Source of the DNA: Saccharibacillus sacchari DSM 19268
Lineage (GTDB): Bacteria > Bacillota > Bacilli > Paenibacillales > Paenibacillaceae
DNA length: 64,000 nucleotides
Direction: 5' to 3'
NCBI RefSeq assembly: GCF_000585395.1
Contig: NZ_KK073875.1
Location: forward strand, 969,311-1,033,310
This document shows, in pieces, positions 40,913 to 53,873 of this stretch. The notes below the pieces were generated by a model. That model was given only the letters and a program-made list of their open reading frames with translations. It was not told the DNA's origin and searched no databases. The position numbers were made by a program, and so were the translations under genes. Each line of letters starts with the position of its first letter. The stretch's first letter is position 1.

Positions 40913-41311
40913 ATGAAAAAACATATTCACGTAGTTGGAGCAGTCATCATCGAAAATGAAAAAATCCTTTGCGCGCAGCGCGGGAATACGAAAACCCTAT
41001 CTTACAAATGGGAGTTCCCCGGCGGAAAGATCGAAGAAGGCGAGACGCCGCAAGAAGCTCTAAAACGCGAGATCGACGAAGAAATGAATTGTACGGTGGA
41101 GATCGGCAAGTTCATCGAAACAACCGTGCACGAATACGAATTCGGCTTTGTTCATCTGTCCACGTTCTATTGTACGTTGATCGACGGACAACCTACGCTG
41201 ACCGAACATGTCGATATCAAATGGCTAGCCGCTTCCGAGCTGATGACGCTGGACTGGGCTCCTGCGGATATCCCGGCCGTAGAGAAAATCCAGGAGCAGA
41301 TGAAGAACTAA
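40913..41311 (+). CDS. NUDIX hydrolase (MutT/CTP pyrophosphohydrolase-like)
   Basis: The 132-aa protein starts MKKHIHVVGAVIIENEKILC. The Nudix box is complete at about residues 37-58: GGKIEEGE, then EALKREIDEEM with the metal-binding REIDEE. It resembles MutT/NudG-type sanitising enzymes that hydrolyse damaged or modified nucleotides. ATG follows ACGGAGGCATTC. Its stop codon overlaps the start of the PLD-helicase gene as TAATG, so the two are translationally coupled and probably work together. Confidence 0.93.
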   Translation: MKKHIHVVGAVIIENEKILCAQRGNTKTLSYKWEFPGGKIEEGETPQEALKREIDEEMNCTVEIGKFIETTVHEYEFGFVHLSTFYCTLIDGQPTLTEHVDIKWLAASELMTLDWAPADIPAVEKIQEQMKN

Positions 41312-44205
41312 TGGACAACTCGATGCAGCATTTGAACGACTCCCTGAATTGGGGATTCATCAATCATGAACAAGAATCGTTGGATCAATATAAACCTAAG
41401 CTGCTGATTAACAATAAAGAAACGGGCGATCACGTCCTTACGCCTTTGCTCGAAGAGCTTCAGCAATGCCAGAGCTTTACGTTCTCCGTAGCTTTTATCA
41501 CGGAGAGCGGCCTGGCCGTATTAAAGTCTCAACTTGCGGATCTTAACGCCAAAGGCATTCGCGGCAAAATTCTGACCTCTAACTACTTAAACTTCAACCA
41601 GCCTAAGATTTTCCGAGAGCTGCTGAAGATTACAAATGTGGAAGTCCGCATTACTTATCTCGACGGCTTCCATGCAAAGGGCTATGTATTCCAACATCCG
41701 AACCATTCCACAATCATCATGGGAAGCTCAAACCTGACGTCGGCTGCTTTGAAAACAAACTATGAATGGAACGTGAAGCTAACTTCTTTCGAACACGGTG
41801 GATTATTGGGGCAGTTCCATACCGAGTTCGACAAAGCCTGGCAAACAGCGACCCCGCTCACTCCGTATTGGATCGAGGCTTATGAAGTTCTGTATGAAGA
41901 AGTTAAAAAAGCAAACGAGCAGATTCAGATTCCCGTTCCTTTCTTGCCGGAAGTCGCGGTCCCTTACAACACGCTTCGACGAATCGAACCCAACAAAATG
42001 CAAGTTCAGGCTTTGCAGAATCTCGGCGCATTAAGAGACAGCGGAGCCCGCAGAGGCTTGGTGATCTCGGCGACGGGAACCGGAAAAACGTATCTGTCTG
42101 CTTTTGATGTCAGAAACGCCGCTCCGCGTCGAATGCTTTTTATCGTCCACAGAGAGCAAATTCTTAAAAAGGCGATGAGCGATTATCAGAAAATCATCGG
42201 CGGACCGGATTCGGACTTCGGCATTTTCTCCGGTAATCGTCGGGAAACGGAAGCTAAATACGTATTCGCCACGATCCAGACCATATCCCGAGCAGACAAT
42301 CTAAGTCACTTTGCCGCCGATGCTTTTGATTACATCTTGATCGACGAAGTACATAGATCGGGCGCAGATACCTACTTGAGAGTGATCAACCATTTTGAAC
42401 CCAAGTTCCTGCTCGGCATGACGGCTACGCCTGAACGTACGGATGAATTCAACATCTATGAATTGTTCGATTACAATATCGCGTACGAGATCCGGCTGCA
42501 ACAAGCTTTGGAAGAAGATATGCTGTGTCCGTTCCATTACTTCGGCGTGACGGATTTTATTCAAAACGGCGAACTGATCGACGATCCGACTCGTTTGACC
42601 CAGCTCGCTCAAGAAGAACGCGTGAACTATTTGCTGGAGAAAATCGTCTACTACGGGCATTCCGGAGAAACGGTTAAAGGTCTGATCTTCTGCGCGAACT
42701 TGAACGAAGCCGGCGGTTTATCCGATATGCTCAACGCTCGCGGTTATCGTACGGCAGCATTAACAGGCGACCACGATCAAGACGAACGCGAACTTCGGGT
42801 GACGCAGTTGGAAAACGGAGAGCTTGACTATATTCTTACCGTGGACATTTTCAACGAGGGAATCGATATTCCTTGCATCAACCAAGTAGTCATGCTGCGC
42901 CAAACGCAATCCAACATCATCTTCGTGCAGCAGCTCGGCCGCGGATTACGTAAGCATGAAGATAAAGAGTTCGTTACGGTGATCGACTTCATCGGAAACT
43001 ACAAAAACAACTATATGATCCCGATCGCCCTCTCCGGAGACAAGTCGCAGAACAAAGATAATATTCGGCGCCATATGAAAGACACCAGCTACATCAAAGG
43101 CGTCTCTTCGATCAACTTCGAAGAAGTCGCCAAGCAACAAATTTTCAAATCGATCAGCAATAGCAACCTGACGGCACTTAAGGTGCTGCGCGAAGCATAT
43201 ATTGAGCTCAAAAATCGATTAAACCGTATTCCGCTGCTGCTGGATTTCATGGAGAATAACTCGCTCGACCCGTTGATCTTCGCCGACGAGTTCTCAAGTT
43301 ATTATCATTTCTTATTGAAGATCAAGGAGCCGGTTCCGAGTTTATCCGAGCAGGATCAACAGTACTTGACGATGCTTTCTTCGGAAGTGCTGAACGGCAA
43401 GCGCCGACATGAGATTGTATTGCTGGACATGCTCATGAAGCAAGATCACGTGACCAAACAAGAATACGTCGAACGTCTTCGAGCAGAGAACTGCCGGGTA
43501 GGCGTAGACACGCTGCATTCGGTCATGCGCGTTCTGAGTATGGAATTCTTCACCGATCCGACGCGAAAAAAGTACGGTACCACGCCGATAGTCGAGCTGA
43601 ATGACGATCAAAGGTATAGCTTCCATCCCGTGATGAAAGAAGCGTTGCAGCAACGAGAACACTTCAGAGAGCTTATCGTAGACCTGATCCAAACGGCCTT
43701 TTCCAAAAACGAACAGTATGACGGCCAAGCTCCTATGACTTTGCATAACAAATATTCTCGTAAAGACTCCTGCAAGCTGCTGAATTGGGAAAACGACGAG
43801 AGTTCGACGATGTACGGGTATAAGACCAAACACGGAACATGCCCGATCTTCGTGACCTACGAGAAACATTCCGATATCGAAGCCAGTACCAAGTACCAGG
43901 AAGAACTGATCAATCCGGAAGTCCTAAAGTGGTCGACCCGTAGCCGGCGTACGACGATGTCTCCGGAAGTTCGGATGATTCTGGATGCCGATCAGGAAGG
44001 AATCGAGCTGCATGTCTTCGTGAAGAAGGATGATGCGGAGGGTACGGAGTTTTACTACCTGGGCAGAGCGCATTATGACGGGAAAAGCGCCGTAGATAGC
44101 ACTATGTCGGATAAAGATGGCAATTCAATTCCCGTTGTGCATATGAATTTGGTGTTGGAGAATGCGGTGGAGAGTAAGTTGTATGGGTATTTGGTTCGGA
44201 GTTAA
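41311..44205 (+). CDS. PLD nuclease-SF2 helicase with C-terminal DUF3427
   Basis: The 964-aa protein has an N-terminal phospholipase-D-like nuclease domain (about 30-190; GFHAKGYVF and IIMGSSNLTSAALKTNYEWN give the HxK...N motif near 121-140). An SF2 DEAD/DEAH helicase follows: Walker A ISATGTGKTYLSAF near 250, ILIDEVHRSGADTY near 345, GMTATPERTDEF, and motif VI QQLGRGLRKHED. The C-terminal DUF3427 region (about 800-964) includes GYKTKHGTCPIFVTYEKHSD and EFYYLGRAHYDG. The single HKD half-site implies dimerisation. Such proteins occur in defence islands. It is coupled to the NUDIX gene by TAATG. The target nucleic acid is unknown. Confidence 0.88.
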   Translation: MDNSMQHLNDSLNWGFINHEQESLDQYKPKLLINNKETGDHVLTPLLEELQQCQSFTFSVAFITESGLAVLKSQLADLNAKGIRGKILTSNYLNFNQPKIFRELLKITNVEVRITYLDGFHAKGYVFQHPNHSTIIMGSSNLTSAALKTNYEWNVKLTSFEHGGLLGQFHTEFDKAWQTATPLTPYWIEAYEVLYEEVKKANEQIQIPVPFLPEVAVPYNTLRRIEPNKMQVQALQNLGALRDSGARRGLVISATGTGKTYLSAFDVRNAAPRRMLFIVHREQILKKAMSDYQKIIGGPDSDFGIFSGNRRETEAKYVFATIQTISRADNLSHFAADAFDYILIDEVHRSGADTYLRVINHFEPKFLLGMTATPERTDEFNIYELFDYNIAYEIRLQQALEEDMLCPFHYFGVTDFIQNGELIDDPTRLTQLAQEERVNYLLEKIVYYGHSGETVKGLIFCANLNEAGGLSDMLNARGYRTAALTGDHDQDERELRVTQLENGELDYILTVDIFNEGIDIPCINQVVMLRQTQSNIIFVQQLGRGLRKHEDKEFVTVIDFIGNYKNNYMIPIALSGDKSQNKDNIRRHMKDTSYIKGVSSINFEEVAKQQIFKSISNSNLTALKVLREAYIELKNRLNRIPLLLDFMENNSLDPLIFADEFSSYYHFLLKIKEPVPSLSEQDQQYLTMLSSEVLNGKRRHEIVLLDMLMKQDHVTKQEYVERLRAENCRVGVDTLHSVMRVLSMEFFTDPTRKKYGTTPIVELNDDQRYSFHPVMKEALQQREHFRELIVDLIQTAFSKNEQYDGQAPMTLHNKYSRKDSCKLLNWENDESSTMYGYKTKHGTCPIFVTYEKHSDIEASTKYQEELINPEVLKWSTRSRRTTMSPEVRMILDADQEGIELHVFVKKDDAEGTEFYYLGRAHYDGKSAVDSTMSDKDGNSIPVVHMNLVLENAVESKLYGYLVRS

Positions 44206-44243
44206 ATACTTTATTTAAGTAGTTGATAAGGAGATAAAAAAAG

Positions 44244-44735
44244 ATGAAAGATAAAGTAAAAGGTATATTCATTGGGCTCGCAATCGGTACATTGTTAACA
44301 GGAGCTACTGCGGCTGCGGCTGGAACAAATATAAACGTTGTAATCAAAAAGCTTACTATGTACGTAGATGGTACAAAAAAGACCTCAGCTAACAGCCTCA
44401 TTTACAATGGAACTACCTACGTGCCAATCCGCAGTACGGCTACTGCAATCGGAAAGTCTGTTTCCTTACACGACAACAATTTGTATATCGGGAAGCAACC
44501 CACTGCTCTGACAGAAGATCAGGCGCTTGATAAGTTGTATAACAAAATCAAAAAAGATGCTGACCGCTATAAGCTTCATTTTATGTTGGAAGAAGAAAAC
44601 TCTGAAAGTTATTCAATAAGAGCCTTTGAAGATATGGATACTCATATCGCTACATACGGTTTCTATACCATCTACAAATATAGCGGTAAAATTACTAAGT
44701 TAGATATTGTCAGCGGAAAAGAAATAGAAATTTAG
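44244..44735 (+). CDS. Small exported stalk-domain protein (163 aa)
   Basis: ATG follows TAAGGAGATAAAAAAAG. The signal peptide is MKDKVKGIFIGLAIGTLLTG then ATAAAAG. Residues about 30-95 form half of a copper-amine-oxidase-N/stalk domain, with LTMYVDGTKKTSANSLIYNG and TTYVPIRSTATAIGKSV. The rest is charged and helical (LTEDQALDKLYNKIKKDADR). The gene is AT-rich compared with the chromosome and sits inside the defence-type island, 38 nt after the PLD-helicase. Its role there is unclear; it may be an unrelated envelope protein. Confidence 0.78.
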   Translation: MKDKVKGIFIGLAIGTLLTGATAAAAGTNINVVIKKLTMYVDGTKKTSANSLIYNGTTYVPIRSTATAIGKSVSLHDNNLYIGKQPTALTEDQALDKLYNKIKKDADRYKLHFMLEEENSESYSIRAFEDMDTHIATYGFYTIYKYSGKITKLDIVSGKEIEI

Positions 44736-44790
44736 TTAGTCACAATGAATAAAAATATCTTAACTCAATCATTATAAAAGCAACTTACAA

Positions 44791-44832
44791 ATAGCCAAGA
44801 GAATTGTCTAAACCATTCTCTTGGCTATTTCT
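44791..44832. terminator. Bidirectional terminator
   Basis: ATAGCCAAGAGAAT and ATTCTCTTGGCTAT pair perfectly around a 9-nt loop between convergent genes ending at 44735 and 44840; TTTCTTT follows on the plus strand. Confidence 0.85.
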
Positions 44833-44839
44833 TTAAATG

Positions 44840-45781
44840 CTATTGCTTCTTCCATCTTTGTAATTTTTCTAATATGTCTCCTCGTGCGATTACGTCTCCT
44901 GTAATCATCGCAATGTATTCTATTTCTTTAGCATCATAAAGAGTTAATTTAAATTTAAATTCTCGATCAGTAGTACCATACTCGTCTAGATTTAATCGAA
45001 TAGGATCCGAGGATTCAAAACGTACGAATAGTTCCCCTACTGTCTCATGTGCAGGCAAGAGAGAAATTTGAAAATCTCCTCCTACATCTTCTTTCATTCC
45101 ACATACCATATGCCTTGAAAGCTTGTTTCCTTCCAGGTCAAACACTGTCAGGCTTCCCGCTATGATAGTGACCGGTTTTTTTGTGTAATTGCTAATACGT
45201 ACTTCTATAGACGCACAGCCTAACCTTTCAACTCGAGCAAATAAAAGATCATTGCGAAACGCTACTTCTACTTGTTCTTTACCTTCATAGATCAAATCCA
45301 AATCTCTTCGTTGAAGTCGGCTATTATGGCTTCCTTTTCTGATCCAAGAGTCTCCTACTTGAAGATAAGTCGCTTTTTTCTGAGAAGTAGCTTCTCCTTC
45401 CTTATGAAAAATGGCTTTATTTTTCTTGACTACATAAGGTCTATCCGTATTGCCAAAGATTTTGAATATGCCATATGCCTTACCTTTAAGTTCATATTTG
45501 AAATATTCAAATGCAATATCAGGCTCTACATAGCTACTTAATATAACAGCATACTCTGCCGAATCTCTAAATTCTTCAGGTGTAATTCCTATAAAATCTT
45601 TCCCTTCTTTCCGATCCTTTATTCCAATAATGATATATTTATCTTCGTCAGAAATTACATTGGCCATTGCTATTACATCTTTTATAAAATCTATGGTTTT
45701 ATCTGGTGAATACTGTGTTTGCTTATAATCCAAGCATTCCCCTTCATGTCCATAAAGAATTAAATCATCTAATTCATTCAT
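44840..45781 (-). CDS. AlbA_2/Schlafen-type domain protein
   Basis: The 313-aa protein starts MNELDDLILYGHEGECLDYK. The N-terminal 160 residues match the AlbA_2 (Schlafen core-like) pattern: ExxxLDYKQTQ, FIKDVIAMANVISDEDKYII, IGIKDRKEGKDFIGITPEEF and the late YLQVGDSWIRKGSHNSRLQR. The C-terminal 150 residues are beta-rich and unassigned. AlbA_2 proteins bind or cleave nucleic acid, and Schlafen-like cores are found in antiviral proteins. It is AT-rich, follows CGAGGTGAATAT, and is separated from the helicase operon by a terminator. Confidence 0.8.
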   Translation of the reverse strand: MNELDDLILYGHEGECLDYKQTQYSPDKTIDFIKDVIAMANVISDEDKYIIIGIKDRKEGKDFIGITPEEFRDSAEYAVILSSYVEPDIAFEYFKYELKGKAYGIFKIFGNTDRPYVVKKNKAIFHKEGEATSQKKATYLQVGDSWIRKGSHNSRLQRRDLDLIYEGKEQVEVAFRNDLLFARVERLGCASIEVRISNYTKKPVTIIAGSLTVFDLEGNKLSRHMVCGMKEDVGGDFQISLLPAHETVGELFVRFESSDPIRLNLDEYGTTDREFKFKLTLYDAKEIEYIAMITGDVIARGDILEKLQRWKKQ

Positions 45782-45810
45782 ATATTCACCTCGTTAAGAT
45801 TCGAAAATTC

Positions 45811-45847
45811 AAAAAACATAAGAAGCGTTAGCCTCTTATGTTTTTTA
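45811..45847 (-). terminator. Terminator of the helicase/Gabija operon
   Basis: On the minus strand AAAAAACATAAGA pairs with TCTTATGTTTTTT around CTAACGC. It starts three nt after the PLD-helicase stop codon and separates it from the AlbA_2 gene. Confidence 0.88.
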
Positions 45848-45849
45848 AA

Positions 45850-48297
45850 TCATTTTTCATGTACCCGCCGCTCAAAATGCACATGCAGCCGATACTCGCA
45901 AACTTCCCGCGTCCAGCGATAGAGCAGCCCTTTATCTTCCTCCGCTACATCAAACGCCAACCGGAACTTTCCATCTACAAACTCCACCTGACTGCCTTTC
46001 GCCCCTGCCCACTTGCTCATCGGCATACCCGCGATCAGCTTCGCCACTTTGGTTCGCGTCTGCTCGCTCCAGTTCCACATCGCTTTCGCTTCTTTGCCCG
46101 AGAAGTCGATCCGTTTGCGGTATTCCTTCTCCGTCAAATATTCATGGAAAAAGGATGCTGCTTCCTCAGCCGCCACCGGATCGGTCCAACGCTCCGCGCC
46201 GCGCTCCAGCATATAGGCAAGCACGACCATTTTGTAGCTTCTCGCCATCGCTGTTTTTTCCGCGTCGATTAGCCAGGCTTCATACCGCTGGTATACCCGT
46301 TGCTCCCGTTCATCCAACAATCCGGCCCAGTTCAAGAACCCGACATACGAACCGAATTCATCCCGATAGCCTTTGCTCACTGACCGTCCCTGCAAATGCA
46401 GCTCCAAGTAAGTCGGTATACGCCCTAGCTCGCTTTTGACATCCAGAAAATCGCGGTGCAGCTTCTCCCGGTACGGCGCGCGTTTGCGGCTCAGTTCTTC
46501 CAACAGATTGACGACCGCCGTTTCCAGTTGGATCGAGCAGCTTTCCGGCACGGTCGGGATACCGGTCGGCCGTTCCTTTTTCCCGCCTTCGTCCTCGTCC
46601 CCGTGTTCCGCAAACAACCGCAGCTTTACGTCCGCATTCCGGTAGTTGCCGATCAGGTCGATAATGACGCAGTGCGACTTTCCTTCCGCCAAACGCAGCC
46701 CGCGCCCCACCTGCTGCGTGAACACGGTCAGCGACTCGGTCGGCCGGACAAATAGCAGCGTATCCACGCTCGGAATATCCGTGCCTTCGTTGAACAGGTC
46801 CACCGTGAACAGCACGTCCATTTCTCCCGCATCCAACCGACGAATCGCTTCTTCCCGGCTCATTTCCTTCGTGCGCGAGTGCAAGCTCAGCGTACGGCTG
46901 CTTCGAATGCGGAAGTAGTCCGACAAATAATCCGCCTGCTGGATCGACGAGCAAAACGCGATCGTACGCGTCTGCCGTCTGTCAATCCAAGCTTCGTACA
47001 CGCGCTCCGCATACTCTTCCCGAAGCTGCGCCGCAAGCAGCTGCTCCTCGTCGTAATGCGTGCCCAGCCAGCGAATGTCGGAATAGTCCGTCTCATCATG
47101 CACACCGTAATACTGGAAAGGCGCCAGCCATTCCCGCCGAATCGCCTCGATAAAATGTATCCGGTACGCCACGTTCCCGCCGCACAATGCATATACGTCC
47201 TGCCCGTCCATCCGGTCCGGCGTCGCCGTGATGCCCAGCATGAAATGCGGCCGGAAATAGTCGAGCACCGACCGATACGATCTCGCCGCCGCATGATGGA
47301 ACTCGTCGATAACGATCAGGTCGAAATCATCCGGGGAAAAGGCTTCGCGATGCTTTTTCATCCCCAGCGTATAAATAGAAGCAAATACGCAGTCGCTTTG
47401 GCTGTCTTTGCTCTGCCCATTGTACAGACCATGGCTTCGCTCCGGAAGCACATGCCGAAACGAACGCGCCGCCTGCTGAAGAATCTCCTCGCGGTGAGCG
47501 ACGAACAGCACTCTTCGATACCGTTTCGCCAAAAAAGCGGCCAGATACGTTTTGCCTAGCCCGGTCGCCATGACCACCATTGCGCGGTCGTATTCTTCCT
47601 CGATCGTCGCGTCCAGCGCATCCAGCGCCATGGCCTGAGCCGGTCTGGGCTGGATGGTGGTGTCCGTGCTTTTTTCTTCCGCCGGCGCTTCAATCTGCGT
47701 CTCCCTAACGTCCGCTTCGGCTTCCTCCATCTGGATCACCTGACGCTGCAATTCGGGATTTTTTCGGTGATTGAGCAGGTACTCTTCTTCGTACAGCGTG
47801 ATCGTATCCTCTGTCAGCGGCAGCGTAGCGTCATGATACAGACTCTCCATGAACTGATCCATCGCGTTCTGGAACGTATACGGCTCCGCCTGCGCGTTCA
47901 TCGCCAGATTCCATTCATACCCCGTCTTCAACGCCGAAAACGAAAAATTGGAAGAGCCGACGATCAGCAGCCCTTCCCCGTTTTCATAGTCAAAGAGGTA
48001 AGCTTTGGGGTGAAAAGACGTCCCCATGCTCCGCCACAACCGCGCTTCCAGCCGATTGTCGATCGACAGCAGTTTGCGCAGCCCTTCCGGCTGAGTGATG
48101 TACAGATAGTCCCCCGCCAGCATCTTCACCTCGGCCCCGCGATCTAGCGCCTTTTTCAAATGCGGAGCCAGCAGATTAACGCCAGACTGCATGAGAAAAG
48201 ACGTCATGATGTAGATCCCTGTCGCATGCTGCATCCCCGCAATAAGCTCATCCCCCAGGTTGCGGGTGATGAGCTTGACGTTAAGATTCGTGGACAT
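45850..48297 (-). CDS. PLD nuclease-SF2 helicase (second copy, no DUF3427)
   Basis: The 815-aa protein has a PLD-like N-terminal domain (about 10-170; TSFHPKAYLF and LIVGSSNFSFSALKTGYEWN), a Glu-rich linker (about 190-215), and an SF2 helicase. Walker A is MATGLGKTYLAAF near 243, followed by VIDEFHHAAARSY near 329, MLGITATPDRMDGQ, FTVDLFNEGTDIPSVDTLLF and QQVGRGLRLAEGK. The C-terminal region matches the corresponding part of the helicase at 41311 but lacks the DUF3427 tail. Its start overlaps the MazG-like gene by 17 nt. GC-rich, unlike the Gabija genes upstream. Probably a DNA-targeting defence protein. Confidence 0.88.
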   Translation of the reverse strand: MSTNLNVKLITRNLGDELIAGMQHATGIYIMTSFLMQSGVNLLAPHLKKALDRGAEVKMLAGDYLYITQPEGLRKLLSIDNRLEARLWRSMGTSFHPKAYLFDYENGEGLLIVGSSNFSFSALKTGYEWNLAMNAQAEPYTFQNAMDQFMESLYHDATLPLTEDTITLYEEEYLLNHRKNPELQRQVIQMEEAEADVRETQIEAPAEEKSTDTTIQPRPAQAMALDALDATIEEEYDRAMVVMATGLGKTYLAAFLAKRYRRVLFVAHREEILQQAARSFRHVLPERSHGLYNGQSKDSQSDCVFASIYTLGMKKHREAFSPDDFDLIVIDEFHHAAARSYRSVLDYFRPHFMLGITATPDRMDGQDVYALCGGNVAYRIHFIEAIRREWLAPFQYYGVHDETDYSDIRWLGTHYDEEQLLAAQLREEYAERVYEAWIDRRQTRTIAFCSSIQQADYLSDYFRIRSSRTLSLHSRTKEMSREEAIRRLDAGEMDVLFTVDLFNEGTDIPSVDTLLFVRPTESLTVFTQQVGRGLRLAEGKSHCVIIDLIGNYRNADVKLRLFAEHGDEDEGGKKERPTGIPTVPESCSIQLETAVVNLLEELSRKRAPYREKLHRDFLDVKSELGRIPTYLELHLQGRSVSKGYRDEFGSYVGFLNWAGLLDEREQRVYQRYEAWLIDAEKTAMARSYKMVVLAYMLERGAERWTDPVAAEEAASFFHEYLTEKEYRKRIDFSGKEAKAMWNWSEQTRTKVAKLIAGMPMSKWAGAKGSQVEFVDGKFRLAFDVAEEDKGLLYRWTREVCEYRLHVHFERRVHEK

Positions 48298-48607
48298 CGA
48301 TCAGGTAGATCCGCTGGTCGAAACCGCCGCGCTGGGCGGCTTTATCGGCACGGATCTGCTCTAACTGCTCGGGGTCTGCGCCGTGAGTAGCTGCGAGTGC
48401 GCGGATCACTTCGAGCATATCGGCGAGTTCTTCCAGCGCGTCAGCGTCGGAGGAAGCGGCGAAGTATTCGGTGGCTTCCTCGCGCAGCTTGGAGCGGAGT
48501 TCTATCGCATATTCGGCTTCGTCCAATATGCGGGTGGCAGTGGATTTTCCGGTGGATGCGATGATGTTTGGGATGAGATTACGGATTAGTTTGTTATAAG
48601 TTTTCAT
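48281..48607 (-). CDS. MazG-like nucleoside triphosphate pyrophosphohydrolase
   Basis: The 108-aa protein starts MKTYNKLIRNLIPNIIASTG, the KLVRDKIPEII opening of small phosphoribosyl-ATP-pyrophosphohydrolase/MazG-like enzymes. The metal-binding EExxE...ExxD layout is present in LREEATEYFAASSDADALEE then LADML. These enzymes convert NTPs or dNTPs to NMPs and pyrophosphate. It starts one base after the GajB stop codon and overlaps the PLD-helicase start by 17 nt, so it is translationally tied to the helicase, mirroring the NUDIX-helicase pair at 40913. Confidence 0.85.
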   Translation of the reverse strand: MKTYNKLIRNLIPNIIASTGKSTATRILDEAEYAIELRSKLREEATEYFAASSDADALEELADMLEVIRALAATHGADPEQLEQIRADKAAQRGGFDQRIYLIDVHES

Positions 48608-48608
48608 T

Positions 48609-50246
48609 TTAACCTTCTTTCATTGTACTTTTAGTGTTCCAAGAAAGATTTCCTCTTAGCTCTGGAGTATTATTTAAATATAAAAAAGGTGATTCTCTGG
48701 CTTCAATAAGATCTTTTTGCTTACTCCTGAAACGTTGAGTTCCTATCATAATAAAACAACAGGAAATCGCTCTGGTTACGCCTACATAAAAAAGGTTCAA
48801 AGACTGAGTATAATCTTCCTTTGTAACATGATCACCTTCAAATGGAAAAATCCATCTATAAAGATCCAGCAAAAAAACACATTTAAACTCTAAGCCTTTC
48901 GATTTATGTAACGTCATTATATTAATTTGTTCTTTACTAGCTGGCTTAAAACTGTTTAGTTTACTTTTATCACTTAAAATATTTATTAATTCCAAAAAAA
49001 CTTTTTCATCTTTATGATTAGGGTGAATTAGCTCAGCAAATTTTTTGAAGATATTAGCGTTAAATGACAAGTTTTCCTCTTCTAATTCATAAATTTGAGT
49101 CAATAAATCAAGTGCTTTATAAAATCTCCTTTGTTCATATTCTTCATTAACATACACACTCACAAAGTCCAGCTTTGTAGAAGAACCTGACTTGTATGAG
49201 AAAAAATTAGACAATAAGTCATTGAAGAGAACTCCCCAATAAGAATTACTATGATCTAATGGTGTTTCAATAAATAGCTTGTTAGGAATATTTAAAAAGA
49301 AAGATGCTCTTCTGACGCTTTCATTTCCTCGACACAAAATGGCAAAGTCGCTATTATTCTCTAATCCAAGTCTATTTTTAATCAGCTCTATCTTAGATTC
49401 TATGGCACCCATAATAGCTTCGTCGTCTCCTAAAATATTAACTTTAAATACACGTGTTTGTTCTAATGGCTTTAGGTCAGGCACACCCATTAATGCTAAT
49501 GAATAATTTGCTATACTCTCATGGCACCTATAATTCTTACTCATTCTTAAGTGGGTAAATCTTTTATCTGAGAGAAGTGCAAACAAATATTTCGAATATC
49601 GTTTACTAAAACCATAAATGGCCTGATCCAAATCACCTACAGCAATACCTGTAAGCCCTGAATCAACGATTTTTAAAAATATGTCATGTTGAATTTGACC
49701 ACAATCTTGATATTCGTCTATAAAAACATGAGAATATTTTGATTTTAAATAGAGCATTGCTTCTGGAACGTTACTCAAAATATACATTGCTGTTTCACCG
49801 CATAACTCTAAATAAATTTCACCCTTTAACAAGGACTTTTCAAGTAGCTCATCTTTATTCAAAAATTCCTTCTTCTCTTTTAAATATTTGTAGATTGCAT
49901 CATCTTCTAAGCCTTCTATTACTTCTAGCTCCACGACTTTACCAAGTAAAATTTTAGAAAAAGGAACTATGATCTCTGATATGTAAAATTTATCTATAGT
50001 CCCATAGAAATTATTTTTATTATTGATACCTTTCCTTTCGCATCTAGTCTTTAACTCTTCACTAGCCTTTTTAGTAAAAGAAATTGCTATTACTCCCTGA
50101 TAGTCAAATAAATTTTTAGATATACGATTTATTTTTTCAACTATGGTAAAGGTTTTCCCGCTCCCTGGCTTTGCAGTCACTACTATATTATCATCTAGTT
50201 GTACTATTTTTTGCTGATCTGGACTAGGTTGTACAATCTTCGACAC
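48609..50246 (-). CDS. gajB: Gabija helicase GajB (UvrD/Rep-like SF1)
   Basis: The 545-aa protein is a compact UvrD-type helicase: Walker A VTAKPGSGKTFTIVEK (about 27-40), Walker B FIDEYQDCGQIQHDIF (near 178), VGDLDQAIYGFSKRYSKYLF, MSKNYRCHESIANYSLAL, INIMTLHKSKGLEFKCVFLL and motif VI NLFYVGVTRAISCCF. The length fits GajB (about 490-550 aa). It overlaps gajA by 23 nt, the usual Gabija order. The genes are much more AT-rich than their neighbours, indicating recent transfer. GajB works with the GajA nuclease to block phage replication. Confidence 0.92.
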   Translation of the reverse strand: MSKIVQPSPDQQKIVQLDDNIVVTAKPGSGKTFTIVEKINRISKNLFDYQGVIAISFTKKASEELKTRCERKGINNKNNFYGTIDKFYISEIIVPFSKILLGKVVELEVIEGLEDDAIYKYLKEKKEFLNKDELLEKSLLKGEIYLELCGETAMYILSNVPEAMLYLKSKYSHVFIDEYQDCGQIQHDIFLKIVDSGLTGIAVGDLDQAIYGFSKRYSKYLFALLSDKRFTHLRMSKNYRCHESIANYSLALMGVPDLKPLEQTRVFKVNILGDDEAIMGAIESKIELIKNRLGLENNSDFAILCRGNESVRRASFFLNIPNKLFIETPLDHSNSYWGVLFNDLLSNFFSYKSGSSTKLDFVSVYVNEEYEQRRFYKALDLLTQIYELEEENLSFNANIFKKFAELIHPNHKDEKVFLELINILSDKSKLNSFKPASKEQINIMTLHKSKGLEFKCVFLLDLYRWIFPFEGDHVTKEDYTQSLNLFYVGVTRAISCCFIMIGTQRFRSKQKDLIEARESPFLYLNNTPELRGNLSWNTKSTMKEG

Positions 50247-52008
50247 TTTCTCTCACAACCTTTTCAGCTAAATTTTTGACCTCCGTTAAAGGCTGAGTGA
50301 TAGCATCATTTTTTAATACTTCTAAACTATCAAAGTTATCATTTAAATAAGAAAGCATATTTTCAGCTTTAGCTTTTTTCATTTTTTTAATCACCTTATC
50401 TCTCATGGTTGTACCATAAAATTCAGATAATGAAGAAAACAATATACTATTGGCAAGATCTTCTTCGAGATCTACTTTTGACAAAAAAATATTTTGTGTT
50501 TCCGCTTCTTTTTTCACATTATCCAATAATAAAAGAGTTTCTTTAGGTATTTCATTTTCTTTATTCCATTCATTTTGGTCTTTATTAAGATTCCAATATT
50601 CTAAGAGTTTTGGATTTGAATCTTTTAATAGTTCTTCATAAATCCCCATCACTCTTGAAACCCCAGCATAATACAGCAGATCCAAGGTAACTTCCTTAGA
50701 TATTTTTTTAGTTTTCGAAAATATATCGTTATCTGTTCTAAAAACAAATGGGATATCTAGAGCAAGGCAAATTTTAATGTATGGTTTAAATCCAATACCA
50801 TCAACTGGAATTATAGAGATATTCAAACGATCAAGGTCAATATCCAGTTTTTTAGATAAAGCTGTATAAAAAAGTTTTTCTGAAGGACCTTCTACTAACA
50901 ATACAGCGTTCACAAAAAATACATCCGCAGTAATTGCATTCAGCCTATACCCAAAGTCATTAAAATCTATTTTTATTCTTTCACTACAACCTCCTTGAGC
51001 AACTTTTGTTTTTCTATTTTTAGAATACAATTTAACAATTTTATCCGGACGAAATTCAGAAGCAATATGTGGTGAGTGTGTTGTAATAAATATTTGATCT
51101 TCGAAATTACTTAGTAAGTAACTCGATAGTTTTTTTTGTTGATGGGGATGCAAATGTGCTTCTGGTTCTTCGATTGCAAAAAAAGTTACCTTCTCTATCG
51201 TTCTTCTTGTTTTCTGTTTAGCAACCCAAGTAGCAAGGAATATTTGATTACTTCTTCCGTCTCCTCCAAGAGTTAATTCTTCACCATCTGCTGCATAAAC
51301 AAGTTCTAAGTTTTCTAAAAGTTTAGTCGTATTAGAGCTTGCATTTTTAAAACTCAACTTTTGCCCTTCATTATGAATAGCAAGTCCTTCTAACTCACTA
51401 TTTACATTCTCTAAAGATTTTTTAACATAATTCAAATTATCAACTTTAGAATTTATAGTTTTAAGATTTTCTTTAAGATCATTTATTACACGCTCATCAT
51501 CCGCTTTTAAGTCATCTATCAGGCTAATCTTAGCATCATCAAGAATCTGATTTTTCTCACGCTTCATAAAAGAAGATAAATTTCGATTAGTATTAACATA
51601 CTCCATGTTAAGACGCTTTAAATAAAACCTAGAATTCTTGTTTTCCAGAACATCTTCTGCATGACCTGAGAGGAAAGTATGTTCACCATTTTTAGTGTTT
51701 TGGTACTGGATGTACACATTACCCTCTTTCAAGTCCCCTTTAAAAACACTTCTCAAGCAATCTTCCACTACATTTGTTAACTTTACAGTAATTTCTATTT
51801 CATCTGTTTTGGCATATACATTATAATCTCCATCTGATAGTTCTAAGTCTCTATCACTTAAGCTTCTATCAAACAAAATACGCAGAGCGTAAATCAAATT
51901 TGTTTTACCAACATCATTAGCACCAATTATAAGAGTTTGATTTGCCAGATTTATGCAACAATCATCAAAGTTCCTGAAGCCTTTTATTTTAATCCACTCA
52001 ATCAACAC
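50224..52008 (-). CDS. gajA: Gabija nuclease GajA (OLD-family ATPase-TOPRIM)
   Basis: The chosen start is GTG at 52008 (reads MLIEWIKIKGFRNFDDCC), because ATGGAGGTAATACA precedes it; an ATG at 52047 overlaps the previous stop but lacks a site. The 594-aa protein has an ABC-type ATPase (QTLIIGANDVGKTNLIYAL near 25; LTLGGDGRSNQIFLATW; FFAIEEPEAHLHPHQQKKL; FITTHSPHIASEF) and a TOPRIM domain (AVLLVEGPSEKLFYTAL, SIIPVDGIGFKPYIKI, FVFRTDND). This is the OLD/GajA architecture, a sequence-specific nicking endonuclease held in check by nucleotides. AT-rich. Confidence 0.92.
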   Translation of the reverse strand: MLIEWIKIKGFRNFDDCCINLANQTLIIGANDVGKTNLIYALRILFDRSLSDRDLELSDGDYNVYAKTDEIEITVKLTNVVEDCLRSVFKGDLKEGNVYIQYQNTKNGEHTFLSGHAEDVLENKNSRFYLKRLNMEYVNTNRNLSSFMKREKNQILDDAKISLIDDLKADDERVINDLKENLKTINSKVDNLNYVKKSLENVNSELEGLAIHNEGQKLSFKNASSNTTKLLENLELVYAADGEELTLGGDGRSNQIFLATWVAKQKTRRTIEKVTFFAIEEPEAHLHPHQQKKLSSYLLSNFEDQIFITTHSPHIASEFRPDKIVKLYSKNRKTKVAQGGCSERIKIDFNDFGYRLNAITADVFFVNAVLLVEGPSEKLFYTALSKKLDIDLDRLNISIIPVDGIGFKPYIKICLALDIPFVFRTDNDIFSKTKKISKEVTLDLLYYAGVSRVMGIYEELLKDSNPKLLEYWNLNKDQNEWNKENEIPKETLLLLDNVKKEAETQNIFLSKVDLEEDLANSILFSSLSEFYGTTMRDKVIKKMKKAKAENMLSYLNDNFDSLEVLKNDAITQPLTEVKNLAEKVVRESVEDCTT

Positions 52009-52043
52009 TGTATTACCTCCATTAATTTTAATTATGAACATAT

Positions 52044-53873
52044 TCATTTAAGATTTTTCAATTCATTAGTCATATCTTTAGACTGATTCGCTTCACACAA
52101 CCACCCCGCAAACCCCTGCGCCTTACAATAACTCAAAAACAACCACTCCATCGCCCGCGTCATCCCGATATAAAACAACGAAACTTCCCGCTCCACGTTC
52201 TCTTCAAACTTAAACGGCATACTCTCCACGTTCACGATAAACACCGCCCGGAAATCCAACCCTTTCGAACTGTCGATCGTCGAGAGTTTCACCGTATCCG
52301 CCGTCCGGTCGTAAGCCCGCTTGGAGTGGACGTCTTCCGCGATCCAGTCATGCGGAATCTCCAACCGATCCAGCTCCTTACGCAGTCGATCCACGTAGGA
52401 ATACGAGTACCGATTCCGCACCCGGTACAGGATCGCGATCTCCGAGTAAGGCACCTTCTTCTCTTCATGCAGCTTGCGGATCGCGCGGGCGACCCAAGCG
52501 GCTTCTTCATTGAAGTTCGCACACTGCTTGATGATCGGTTCCGGGCCTTTGCGTTTGGTGCTTTGAGGCGGGATGATCTCGACGCCGTCGACGCTGCTAC
52601 CTTCTTTGACGCGGTCTTTCAGAGCGGAGTGCGTCCGGTAAAAGTCCCAGGCGAAGTTCACGATCTGCGCCGTATTCCGGTAGTTGATGCTCAGGATCTT
52701 GGACCGTCCGCGGAAATCGAGACCGGTGCTGGACGAGAGGCTGCTTTTGCGTCTGAAAATGTTTTGCGCTTTATCTTCAACCAGCAGCAGGGATTGCGTT
52801 TCCGGATTGAGCACTTTGCTCAGCAGCTCCAACCAGCTCGGTTCGAAGTCCTGGCCTTCGTCGATCAGGATCGCGTCATACGTCGGGAGGATCGCTTCGC
52901 CGAGTTTGACCTTTTCCAGCAGCGGCTCGATTCCTGCATCCGGGATGCGCAGCGTGTTTTTCAACCATTCGTGGAACGTCGCCGTCTCGATGTTATGCTT
53001 CTTGGCAGCCGGATTGCCGCTTTCTTCCGCGCTCATCGCCGCAAAGTCGAACAGATCTTCCGGTTCTTCCGTCATATTGTGGATCATGGACTTCAGCACG
53101 CGGGACAGCGGAATGCCGTAGCAGAGCACGAGAATTTTCCAATCGGGATGTTCTTTGGACAGCAGGCGTGCGCGGGCGGACAGAATGAGCGTCTTCCCGC
53201 TTCCGGCAACGCCGCGGATCAACCGGTTTTTGTCACCGAGCTGACGCGCCAGCGCTTCCTGATGCAGATCCATCGCTCGAAGATTATGTAACGACAACAG
53301 CAGTTGATCGTCGTGATGCACGGGAGGCTTGTATTCCGCGCTGATCCGCACTTCGGGGAACAGATGGTAGCGGATCGCTTTGATATCGTCGCGCGTCAGC
53401 ATGAATTGCGGCTCGATCACCCGATGCAGCTGATGTTTGACGATATGCGTCTCCCGCATCTGGGTGAACACGACGCCGAAGCCGAACCGGAATTTGAGGT
53501 TGCCGCGGTACACGCCTTCCAACTGCACGAGGCTTTTATCTTTTTTGAGTTTGCTCGCGATGCGGAATGCATAATTTCGGGCCTGATGCAGCGGGTTGAT
53601 CACCGTGCTCACTTCGCCCTGCTTGTTATAGATGCGCCATTCTTCGGGAAAAAGTTCGTACAGCGTGCTTTCGGTATAGTCTTTCACTTCCAGCACAAGC
53701 ATGCCGAGGTCCGGGCCGATCACGACGAAGTCGGGACAGCGGCCGAAGATGCGGGGTTCGTAGTAGACGATGTAATCGTCGGGCAGATGTTCTTTGAGGG
53801 TGCCGAATAACAGGCGTTCGCCTGCGGTAACTTTCGCGCCTCGGGGAAGGGTCTCCGGGATCATATAAGCCAT
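52044..53873 (-). CDS. NERD-domain SF1 helicase
   Basis: The 609-aa protein begins with a NERD nuclease-related domain (about 14-125; AGERLLFGTLKEHL, CPDFVVIGPDLGMLVLEVKD with the D...ExK signature). A UvrD-like helicase follows: Walker A RGVAGSGKTLILSARARLL (about 220), AILIDEGQDFEPSWLELLSK, KILSINYRNTAQIVNFAWDF, VKLSTIDSSKGLDFRAVFIV and FYIGMTRAMEWLFLSY. It is GC-rich like the chromosome. It lies upstream of gajA on the same strand with 35 nt between, so it may head the whole operon. NERD helicases recur in defence contexts. Confidence 0.9.
   Translation of the reverse strand: MAYMIPETLPRGAKVTAGERLLFGTLKEHLPDDYIVYYEPRIFGRCPDFVVIGPDLGMLVLEVKDYTESTLYELFPEEWRIYNKQGEVSTVINPLHQARNYAFRIASKLKKDKSLVQLEGVYRGNLKFRFGFGVVFTQMRETHIVKHQLHRVIEPQFMLTRDDIKAIRYHLFPEVRISAEYKPPVHHDDQLLLSLHNLRAMDLHQEALARQLGDKNRLIRGVAGSGKTLILSARARLLSKEHPDWKILVLCYGIPLSRVLKSMIHNMTEEPEDLFDFAAMSAEESGNPAAKKHNIETATFHEWLKNTLRIPDAGIEPLLEKVKLGEAILPTYDAILIDEGQDFEPSWLELLSKVLNPETQSLLLVEDKAQNIFRRKSSLSSSTGLDFRGRSKILSINYRNTAQIVNFAWDFYRTHSALKDRVKEGSSVDGVEIIPPQSTKRKGPEPIIKQCANFNEEAAWVARAIRKLHEEKKVPYSEIAILYRVRNRYSYSYVDRLRKELDRLEIPHDWIAEDVHSKRAYDRTADTVKLSTIDSSKGLDFRAVFIVNVESMPFKFEENVEREVSLFYIGMTRAMEWLFLSYCKAQGFAGWLCEANQSKDMTNELKNLK

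Follow-up and report, generated by a model that had tools for sequence, protein, structure and literature searches.

The closest described relative of the locus analyzed here is SauUSI, a type IV restriction enzyme that, in the available part of its description, reads 5-methylcytosine (5mC) and 5-hydroxymethylcytosine (5hmC), acts as a single polypeptide both in vitro and when cloned in Escherichia coli, and requires in vitro modified DNA plus ATP or dATP (PMC3874153). The portion of the structural report at hand describes the deposited SauUSI structure, 7CLG, as a phospholipase D (PLD) nuclease, a superfamily 2 (SF2) ATPase, a coupler, and a reader with the SRA fold, and its title presents the enzyme as a major gene-transfer barrier in Staphylococcus aureus; the terms nudix, pyrophosphohydrolase, mutT, and operon do not occur in the main text as accessible (PMC7913695). 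Among nucleotide hydrolases, E. coli NudG/Orf135 is described, in the accessible text, as hydrolyzing 5-methyl-dCTP, and human DCTPP1, a MazG-fold enzyme, as preferring dCTP and 5-methyl-dCTP (excerpts of PMC4491611). DefensePredictor names MazG among the predicted defense domains acting on nucleotides (PMC13092281). Here, we analyzed a window of 64,000 nucleotides (nt) from Saccharibacillus sacchari DSM 19268 (contig NZ_KK073875.1, positions 969,311 to 1,033,310), lying inside a single 6.08 Mb contig and encoding two PLD-SF2 nuclease-helicases, helicase 1 and helicase 2, preceded by genes for a NUDIX hydrolase and a putative MazG-like pyrophosphohydrolase, respectively. This confirms the claim of the initial annotation that homologous PLD-SF2 nucleases each have their own, unrelated nucleotide hydrolase.

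Helicase 1 aligned with SauUSI over its full length (residues 5-962 with residues 5-952 of PDB 7clg), and the Pfam domains PLDc_2, ResIII, Helicase_C, and DUF3427 were detected, representing a PLD-type HxK nuclease domain (PF13091, 4.9e-12, with HxK and GSSN visible in the translation), an SF2 helicase-like ATPase (PF04851, 2.3e-39; PF00271, 1.3e-14), and a C-terminal DUF3427/SRA reader (PF11907, covering 1-279 of 280). The PLD pattern is kept in 83 of 88 loci. By its sequence, helicase 1 belongs to the SauUSI family of type IV restriction enzymes, and by analogy it is expected to cut DNA bearing 5mC or 5hmC. The NUDIX stop codon (41309-41311) and the helicase 1 ATG (41311-41313) share a base in the sequence TAATG (41309-41313), and the MazG-like gene and helicase 2 share 17 nt on the minus strand, so the overlaps reported for both helicases are present, translational coupling being a reading of them.

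The window NUDIX scored 68.8 bits against PF00293 (cut-off 21.1) with the Nudix-box catalytic residues present, and the catalytic box GX5EX7REXXEE is kept in all 68 NUDIX open reading frames (ORFs) at DUF3427 loci. Its best match among solved structures was 5x1x, with NudG (2rrk) and MutT2 (5zrc) also among the nearest, and the model for NudG, which acts on pyrimidine deoxynucleoside triphosphates (dNTPs), outscored both MutT models in 9 of 12 NUDIX proteins tested. The protein belongs to PDC-S07, a family listed by PADLOC as a defense candidate, and members of this family also occur in other settings. On a Collinsella aerofaciens plasmid (L274, 3998-4987), one protein consists of a PDC-S07-type NUDIX (4.5e-38) fused to Vsr, a mismatch endonuclease tied to 5mC; we set this fusion aside as proof of a role in 5mC, as its NUDIX part is closer to MutT than to NudG. 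On a Treponema saccharophilum plasmid (L275, 2595-4417), the genes for a PDC-S07 NUDIX and an AAA ATPase overlap within an island that further encodes a DNA cytosine methyltransferase and an Eco47II-type endonuclease.

To place the NUDIX pairing in context, 398 genomes of the class, taken as Bacilli, were searched, yielding 138 DUF3427 matches in 132 genomes (fragments counted) and 148 PDC-S07 NUDIX matches in 144 genomes at E values up to 1e-40. Of the DUF3427 matches, 95/138 have a PDC-S07 NUDIX no more than 3.5 kb away and, conversely, 94/148 NUDIX matches have DUF3427 at such a distance, where random placement in a 3.6 Mb genome would give about 0.3. By genome, the NUDIX is present in 104 of the 132 with DUF3427 versus 40 of the 266 without, with phylogeny uncorrected. 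Together with the helicase 2 data below (75/82 loci), these counts place neighboring hydrolases far above chance, and the association between nuclease and hydrolase is real and broad within the class. The initial annotation had named a lack of such enrichment as grounds for rejecting its proposal, and by this comparative measure the proposal stands.

The arrangement of the pair was read in the DNA of 88 DUF3427 loci, comprising 79 loci chosen by hand (a few from each genus, most of them full length) together with 9 from relatives of the window. The NUDIX gene is within 300 nt of the DUF3427 gene in 65 (59 of the hand-picked 79) and within 3 kb in 3 more; no NUDIX was nearby at the other 20. 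It lies upstream on the same strand at 31 of the 65 loci, downstream on the same strand at 8, and convergently downstream at 26, and on a FastTree helicase tree, which contains long branches, these three arrangements or the absence of NUDIX require at least 13 state changes. That the NUDIX stays close through so many changes implies that the linkage is kept without a shared operon. The claim of the initial annotation that the hydrolase is fixed in the same position does not hold for NUDIX, although it does for MazG, as described below. NUDIX is adjacent in 58/66 loci in the part of the tree where DUF3427 is full versus 7/22 in the other part (p 1.2e-6), a split for which root support is weak and in which one of those seven (L141) is a long branch.

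We also searched for a second hydrolase shared by the loci that lack NUDIX, and found none common to the 6 of the 20 that were scanned (L109, L123, L147, L148, L149, and L150), whose neighbors, one each, were Exo_endo_phos, GmrSD, a nucleoside transporter, SIR2_2, a histidine kinase, and an AAA protein. At L123 (344-5373), the SauUSI-type gene adjoins the GmrSD type IV restriction gene, and that genome carries a NUDIX on another contig.

Helicase 2 contains PLDc_2, ResIII, and Helicase_C with HxK/GSSN, Walker A, and DExH motifs, and the PLD and Walker A motifs are kept in 81/81 helicase 2 sequences. As the initial annotation held, DUF3427 was found in helicase 1 and no match to it was obtained for helicase 2 in the Pfam scan; the alignment to 7clg spans chain residues 43-665 of 953. 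On these sequence features, helicase 2 is filed as a SauUSI relative outside the SauUSI family, as it lacks the DUF3427 reader. Its predicted structural model was poor (predicted local distance difference test score, pLDDT, 65.5; predicted template modeling score 0.36). The model of the MazG-like protein (pLDDT 86) had the phosphoribosyl-ATP pyrophosphohydrolase (PRA-PH) 2a7w as its nearest structure, with MazG 5ie9 also found, at weak E values of 0.3-0.7 and among unrelated helical proteins. The protein scored 21.2 bits against PF01503 (PRA-PH; cut-off 21.3), a family matched at E values up to 0.1 by 12 of 13 aligned relatives. The motif EExxE..ExxD is kept in all 75 MazG ORFs found at E values up to 1e-10 among 82 helicase 2 loci. 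The MazG assignment is a weak point, drawn from the motif, the sub-threshold PF01503 score, and the weak fold matches.

The 82 helicase 2 loci were obtained with a profile of 16 sequences, and all were read. MazG lies upstream within 1.5 kb on the same strand at 75, and at 74 of these it overlaps or lies within 5 nt of the helicase 2 start, although overlaps may be overstated where the ORF was taken from the first start codon; L193 holds a fragment, and at L196 the distance is 757 nt. Of 129 MazG matches, 73 adjoin a listed helicase 2. A third fold, a HIT-domain protein with the HxHxH motif kept in 11/11, is found beside 11 of the 82 loci across eight family codes, together with MazG at 8 and directly upstream of helicase 2 at the 3 that lack MazG (PF01230 was found in the three tested, and the remainder were called with a profile built from those three). 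MazG or HIT thus accompanies helicase 2 at 78/82 loci, with neither at L176, L220, L221, and L222. At several Paenibacillaceae loci (L037, L043/L072, L069, L070, and L077), helicase 2 is split or broken and the MazG frame is still open.

The two modules are also found near each other, with DUF3427 within 15 kb of 11/82 helicase 2 loci where 0.4 would be expected. NUDIX, helicase 1, MazG, and helicase 2 occur together on one strand at L097/L272, all four are likewise together at L119 and L219, and at L223 they are accompanied by one intervening gene. Given that helicase 2 lacks the DUF3427 reader and that the modules can occur side by side, they appear complementary, and the initial view of two diverged forms of a single module holds only in part.

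The pairing extends to SauUSI itself. In the S. aureus plasmid record NZ_CP077890.1, a NUDIX gene ends 1 base before an ORF identical to residues 1-655 of 7clg, the frame of which is interrupted past residue 655, and this NUDIX is identical over 130 residues to PDB 5x1x. Among six plasmid records with a match covering at least 80% of helicase 1, NUDIX is directly upstream in five, from S. aureus, Latilactobacillus, Lactiplantibacillus, Hymenobacter, and Limosilactobacillus, the last judged by coordinates, and is missing from the sixth, from Fusobacterium; on the Lactiplantibacillus plasmid, a MazG-like protein (PF12643) comes after the helicase. A Pseudoalteromonas plasmid (L163, 3365-6919) encodes a helicase-2-like protein (34%), directly preceded, at the place expected for MazG, by a class I S-adenosylmethionine-dependent methyltransferase.

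From the homology, the conserved motifs, and the linkage, we infer substrates, targets, and a self-protective role for the hydrolases. Each module would consist of a PLD-SF2 nuclease-motor and a dedicated nucleotide hydrolase, either NUDIX or MazG with or without HIT. Modified nucleotides may be released as phage DNA is degraded or be made by the phage, and a polymerase would build the modified dNTP into the host chromosome, creating a target for the nuclease; by removing it from the pool beforehand, the hydrolase would act as a self-protection (immunity) partner, and it may also starve phages of modified precursors. Helicase 2 would be expected to cut DNA bearing a different mark, one recognized through its own C-terminal region. 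Since SauUSI, in the available text, cuts alone (PMC3874153), the hydrolase appears accessory for cutting; the proposal in the initial annotation that nucleotide hydrolysis is part of the cutting mechanism finds no support, and its suggestion that an inhibitory nucleotide is removed, which we did not adopt as the main role, fits poorly for the same reason. As described above, NudG and DCTPP1 act on 5-methyl-dCTP and SauUSI reads 5mC and 5hmC, and the leading reading is accordingly that the mark is kept out of host DNA. We favor, tentatively and at somewhat less than even confidence, that the hydrolase removes modified dNTPs and would thereby prevent host DNA from acquiring the mark its nuclease cuts. 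A more specific form, in which the fold of the cognate pool-immunity enzyme (NUDIX, MazG, or HIT) is set by the modified nucleotide that would mark the host for the nuclease reader, is possible but somewhat doubtful. Weakly in favor of self-protection, the window genome gave no match to a C5-cytosine methyltransferase (0/1; controls 10/14). At two loci (G251:C8, ~192-195 kb, and G434:C6, ~141-144 kb), a partial DUF3427 lies less than 2 kb from a C5-cytosine methyltransferase gene; these are perhaps ordinary restriction-modification enzymes with a DUF3427-like reader.

Several observations weigh against self-protection through the nucleotide pool. Depletion of C5-cytosine methyltransferases proved a weak test, with matches over the cut-off in 28/80 full-DUF3427 genomes versus 40/80 (one-sided p 0.039, phylogeny uncontrolled). 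Every NUDIX scanned fell under the NudG cut-off (NCBIfam NF007834; 100.2 versus 156 bits for the window NUDIX), a MutT model outscored NudG in 3 of 10 NUDIX relatives, and the mixed model PRK08999 was the top score in 9 of the 12 tested, so that 8-oxo-dGTP is still a possible NUDIX substrate. The MazG profile retrieved no chain named DCTPP1 from the PDB at E values up to 10, and the parallel with DCTPP1 is therefore one of fold only. HIT proteins are not known as dNTP pyrophosphatases. Both hydrolases also occur apart from the nucleases. For 54/148 NUDIX matches, the distance to DUF3427 exceeds 3.5 kb; 2 of these fall within 5 kb, and 1 adjoins helicase 2. Of the MazG matches, 56/129 are away from any listed helicase 2, which is a maximum because two candidates were scored in each genome. 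In 8 genomes of one genus code, NUDIX and MazG are adjacent (30-61 nt) with no listed helicase nearby, which looks like housekeeping; such pairs include L200, L201, and L202 (genus code g13), and the neighbors of L200, the only one scanned, are YceI and GFO/IDH genes. Outside Bacilli the linkage is patchy, as profile models detected no NUDIX or MazG at a SauUSI-type locus on a Fusobacterium plasmid (L169) and no NUDIX, MazG, or HIT at six plasmid loci of distant DUF3427 or helicase-2-like types (L163-L168). Finally, SauUSI is described as restricting in E. coli without the cloned NUDIX (PMC3874153), although that host has its own NudG.

The same linkage of NUDIX with DUF3427 and of MazG with helicase 2 would also be expected if the two activities formed an offensive double layer, in which the hydrolase destroys the modified dNTPs of a phage and the nuclease cuts the finished modified DNA of the same kind of phage. 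This alternative gains from the standing of PDC-S07 as a candidate defense family and from the inclusion of MazG among the DefensePredictor domains (PMC13092281), but SauUSI, as far as its description is available, restricts alone (PMC3874153), and NUDIX-MazG pairs occur with no listed nuclease, the one scanned having YceI and GFO/IDH genes as neighbors; we consider it unlikely. General clean-up, in which a MutT-like activity removes dNTPs oxidized or damaged by infection stress or DNA degradation, unrelated to the mark read by the nuclease, would account for the 3 of 10 relatives that score better with MutT and for the common occurrence of both hydrolases away from PLD-SF2 helicases. However, a general cleaner would not be expected to show a linkage to PLD-SF2 nucleases that is specific, recurs, and is stronger with full DUF3427, which makes this explanation improbable. 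Hydrolases of dinucleoside polyphosphates occur in both the NUDIX and the HIT fold, and HIT can occupy the MazG slot, both of which are compatible with regulation by a nucleotide signal, such as an Ap4A-like alarmone or a base-modified nucleotide, the removal of which would arm or disarm the nuclease-motor on infection. Apart from the ATPase, Pfam finds no domain in either helicase that would sense nucleotides, and the in vitro requirements of SauUSI, in the available text, are modified DNA with ATP or dATP (PMC3874153), which renders such regulation distinctly improbable. That the pairing is hitchhiking with no functional meaning, defense islands such as the window, with its Gabija, NERD-UvrD, and SLFN_AlbA_2 genes, being collectors of genes, is scarcely credible given that the overlap of MazG with helicase 2 recurs across many family codes, that the NUDIX linkage outlasts changes of arrangement with enrichment running both ways, and that its persistence in convergent placement led us to reject hitchhiking within an operon.

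The genes of the window considered here are given in Table 1, and the presence of Gabija, NERD-UvrD, and SLFN_AlbA_2 genes identifies it as a defense island. The adjacent GajA and GajB genes overlap within 48609-52047 on the minus strand and constitute a Gabija system, and the gajB stop and the MazG start are a single base apart. At L032, MazG likewise comes after a GajA/GajB-like pair, a different and distant one (27% identity), and given that a Gabija-type pair stands before MazG at both loci, the site resembles a defense hot spot. The SLFN_AlbA_2 gene, which follows helicase 2 on the same strand after 68 nt, is possibly an extra operon member of the helicase 2 module; of 48 loci read, only L033/L052 (one contig) and L045 have similar genes close to helicase 2.

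Table 1. Genes of the two nuclease-hydrolase modules and the adjoining defense genes, in window coordinates (aa, amino acids).
Feature	Coordinates	Strand	Supporting matches
NUDIX hydrolase, PADLOC candidate family PDC-S07, 132 aa	40913..41311	+	PF00293 6.2e-19; PDC-S07 8.3e-58; PDB 5x1x 5.5e-44
Helicase 1, SauUSI-family type IV restriction enzyme, 964 aa	41311..44205	+	7clg 2.6e-290; mREase_IV 3.2e-303; DUF3427 1.5e-87
SLFN_AlbA_2 protein	44840..45781	-	PF04326 1.2e-13; PDC-S50 2e-16
Helicase 2, PLD-SF2 nuclease-helicase without DUF3427, 815 aa	45850..48297	-	7clg 7.1e-81; ResIII 1.5e-38; PLDc_2 3.8e-8
Putative MazG-like all-alpha nucleoside triphosphate pyrophosphohydrolase, 108 aa	48281..48607	-	Motif EExxE..ExxD; PF01503 4e-4, just under cut-off
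GajB (Gabija) UvrD helicase; context, outside the pair	48609..50246	-	PADLOC GajB 3.1e-183
GajA (Gabija) OLD-type ATPase-TOPRIM; context	50224..52047	-	PADLOC GajA 1.1e-221; OLD-like_TOPRIM 2.2e-18
NERD-UvrD helicase; defense-island context	52044..53873	-	PADLOC C3a187 NERD+UvrD 2.4e-99; NERD 1.1e-11

The identification of helicase 1 as SauUSI-type, the Gabija pair adjoining MazG, and HIT as a third fold go beyond what had been annotated initially. In the literature as available, with a 2015 survey of nucleotide-centered conflict systems (PMC4678834) that may mention part of the pairing outside its scope, no description was found of NUDIX, MazG, or HIT beside SauUSI-type or other PLD-SF2 nucleases. 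The NUDIX, linked in most relatives examined and with a structure already solved (5x1x), is suggested as an overlooked component of SauUSI systems. If the hydrolases do protect host DNA by clearing modified dNTPs, this would explain the ability of a cell to recycle phage DNA and yet maintain a nuclease directed at modified bases, and the combination of reader domain and hydrolase fold would provide a rule for guessing the mark that a PLD-SF2 nuclease attacks. It would also constitute a mirror image of restriction-modification, with the mark kept out of the dNTP pool versus self being methylated, and this self/non-self logic would be present even beside the textbook enzyme SauUSI.

Comparison with known systems places these findings as follows. 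The MazG fold of DCTPP1 is the one tentatively assigned to the window MazG-like protein, but no link to a nuclease is described for the human enzyme in the text available, and it is absent from the PDB matches of the MazG family profile, as noted above. NudG/Orf135 is one of the proteins of solved structure closest to the window NUDIX, but likewise has no nuclease link in its accessible description, and the window protein falls under the NudG cut-off. The MazG system of DefensePredictor resembles the helicase 2 module in placing MazG in predicted nucleotide-targeting defense, but the available text names no PLD helicase (PMC13092281). The window NUDIX belongs to PDC-S07, for which the PADLOC match names neither partner nor mechanism, whereas neighbors and arrangements were counted here. 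SauUSI is matched by helicase 1 over its full length, sharing PLD, SF2, and DUF3427, and differs in being described, in the text available, as acting as a single polypeptide, whereas helicase 1 is paired with NUDIX and its target is predicted; the S. aureus SauUSI gene, too, has a NUDIX directly upstream (NZ_CP077890.1).

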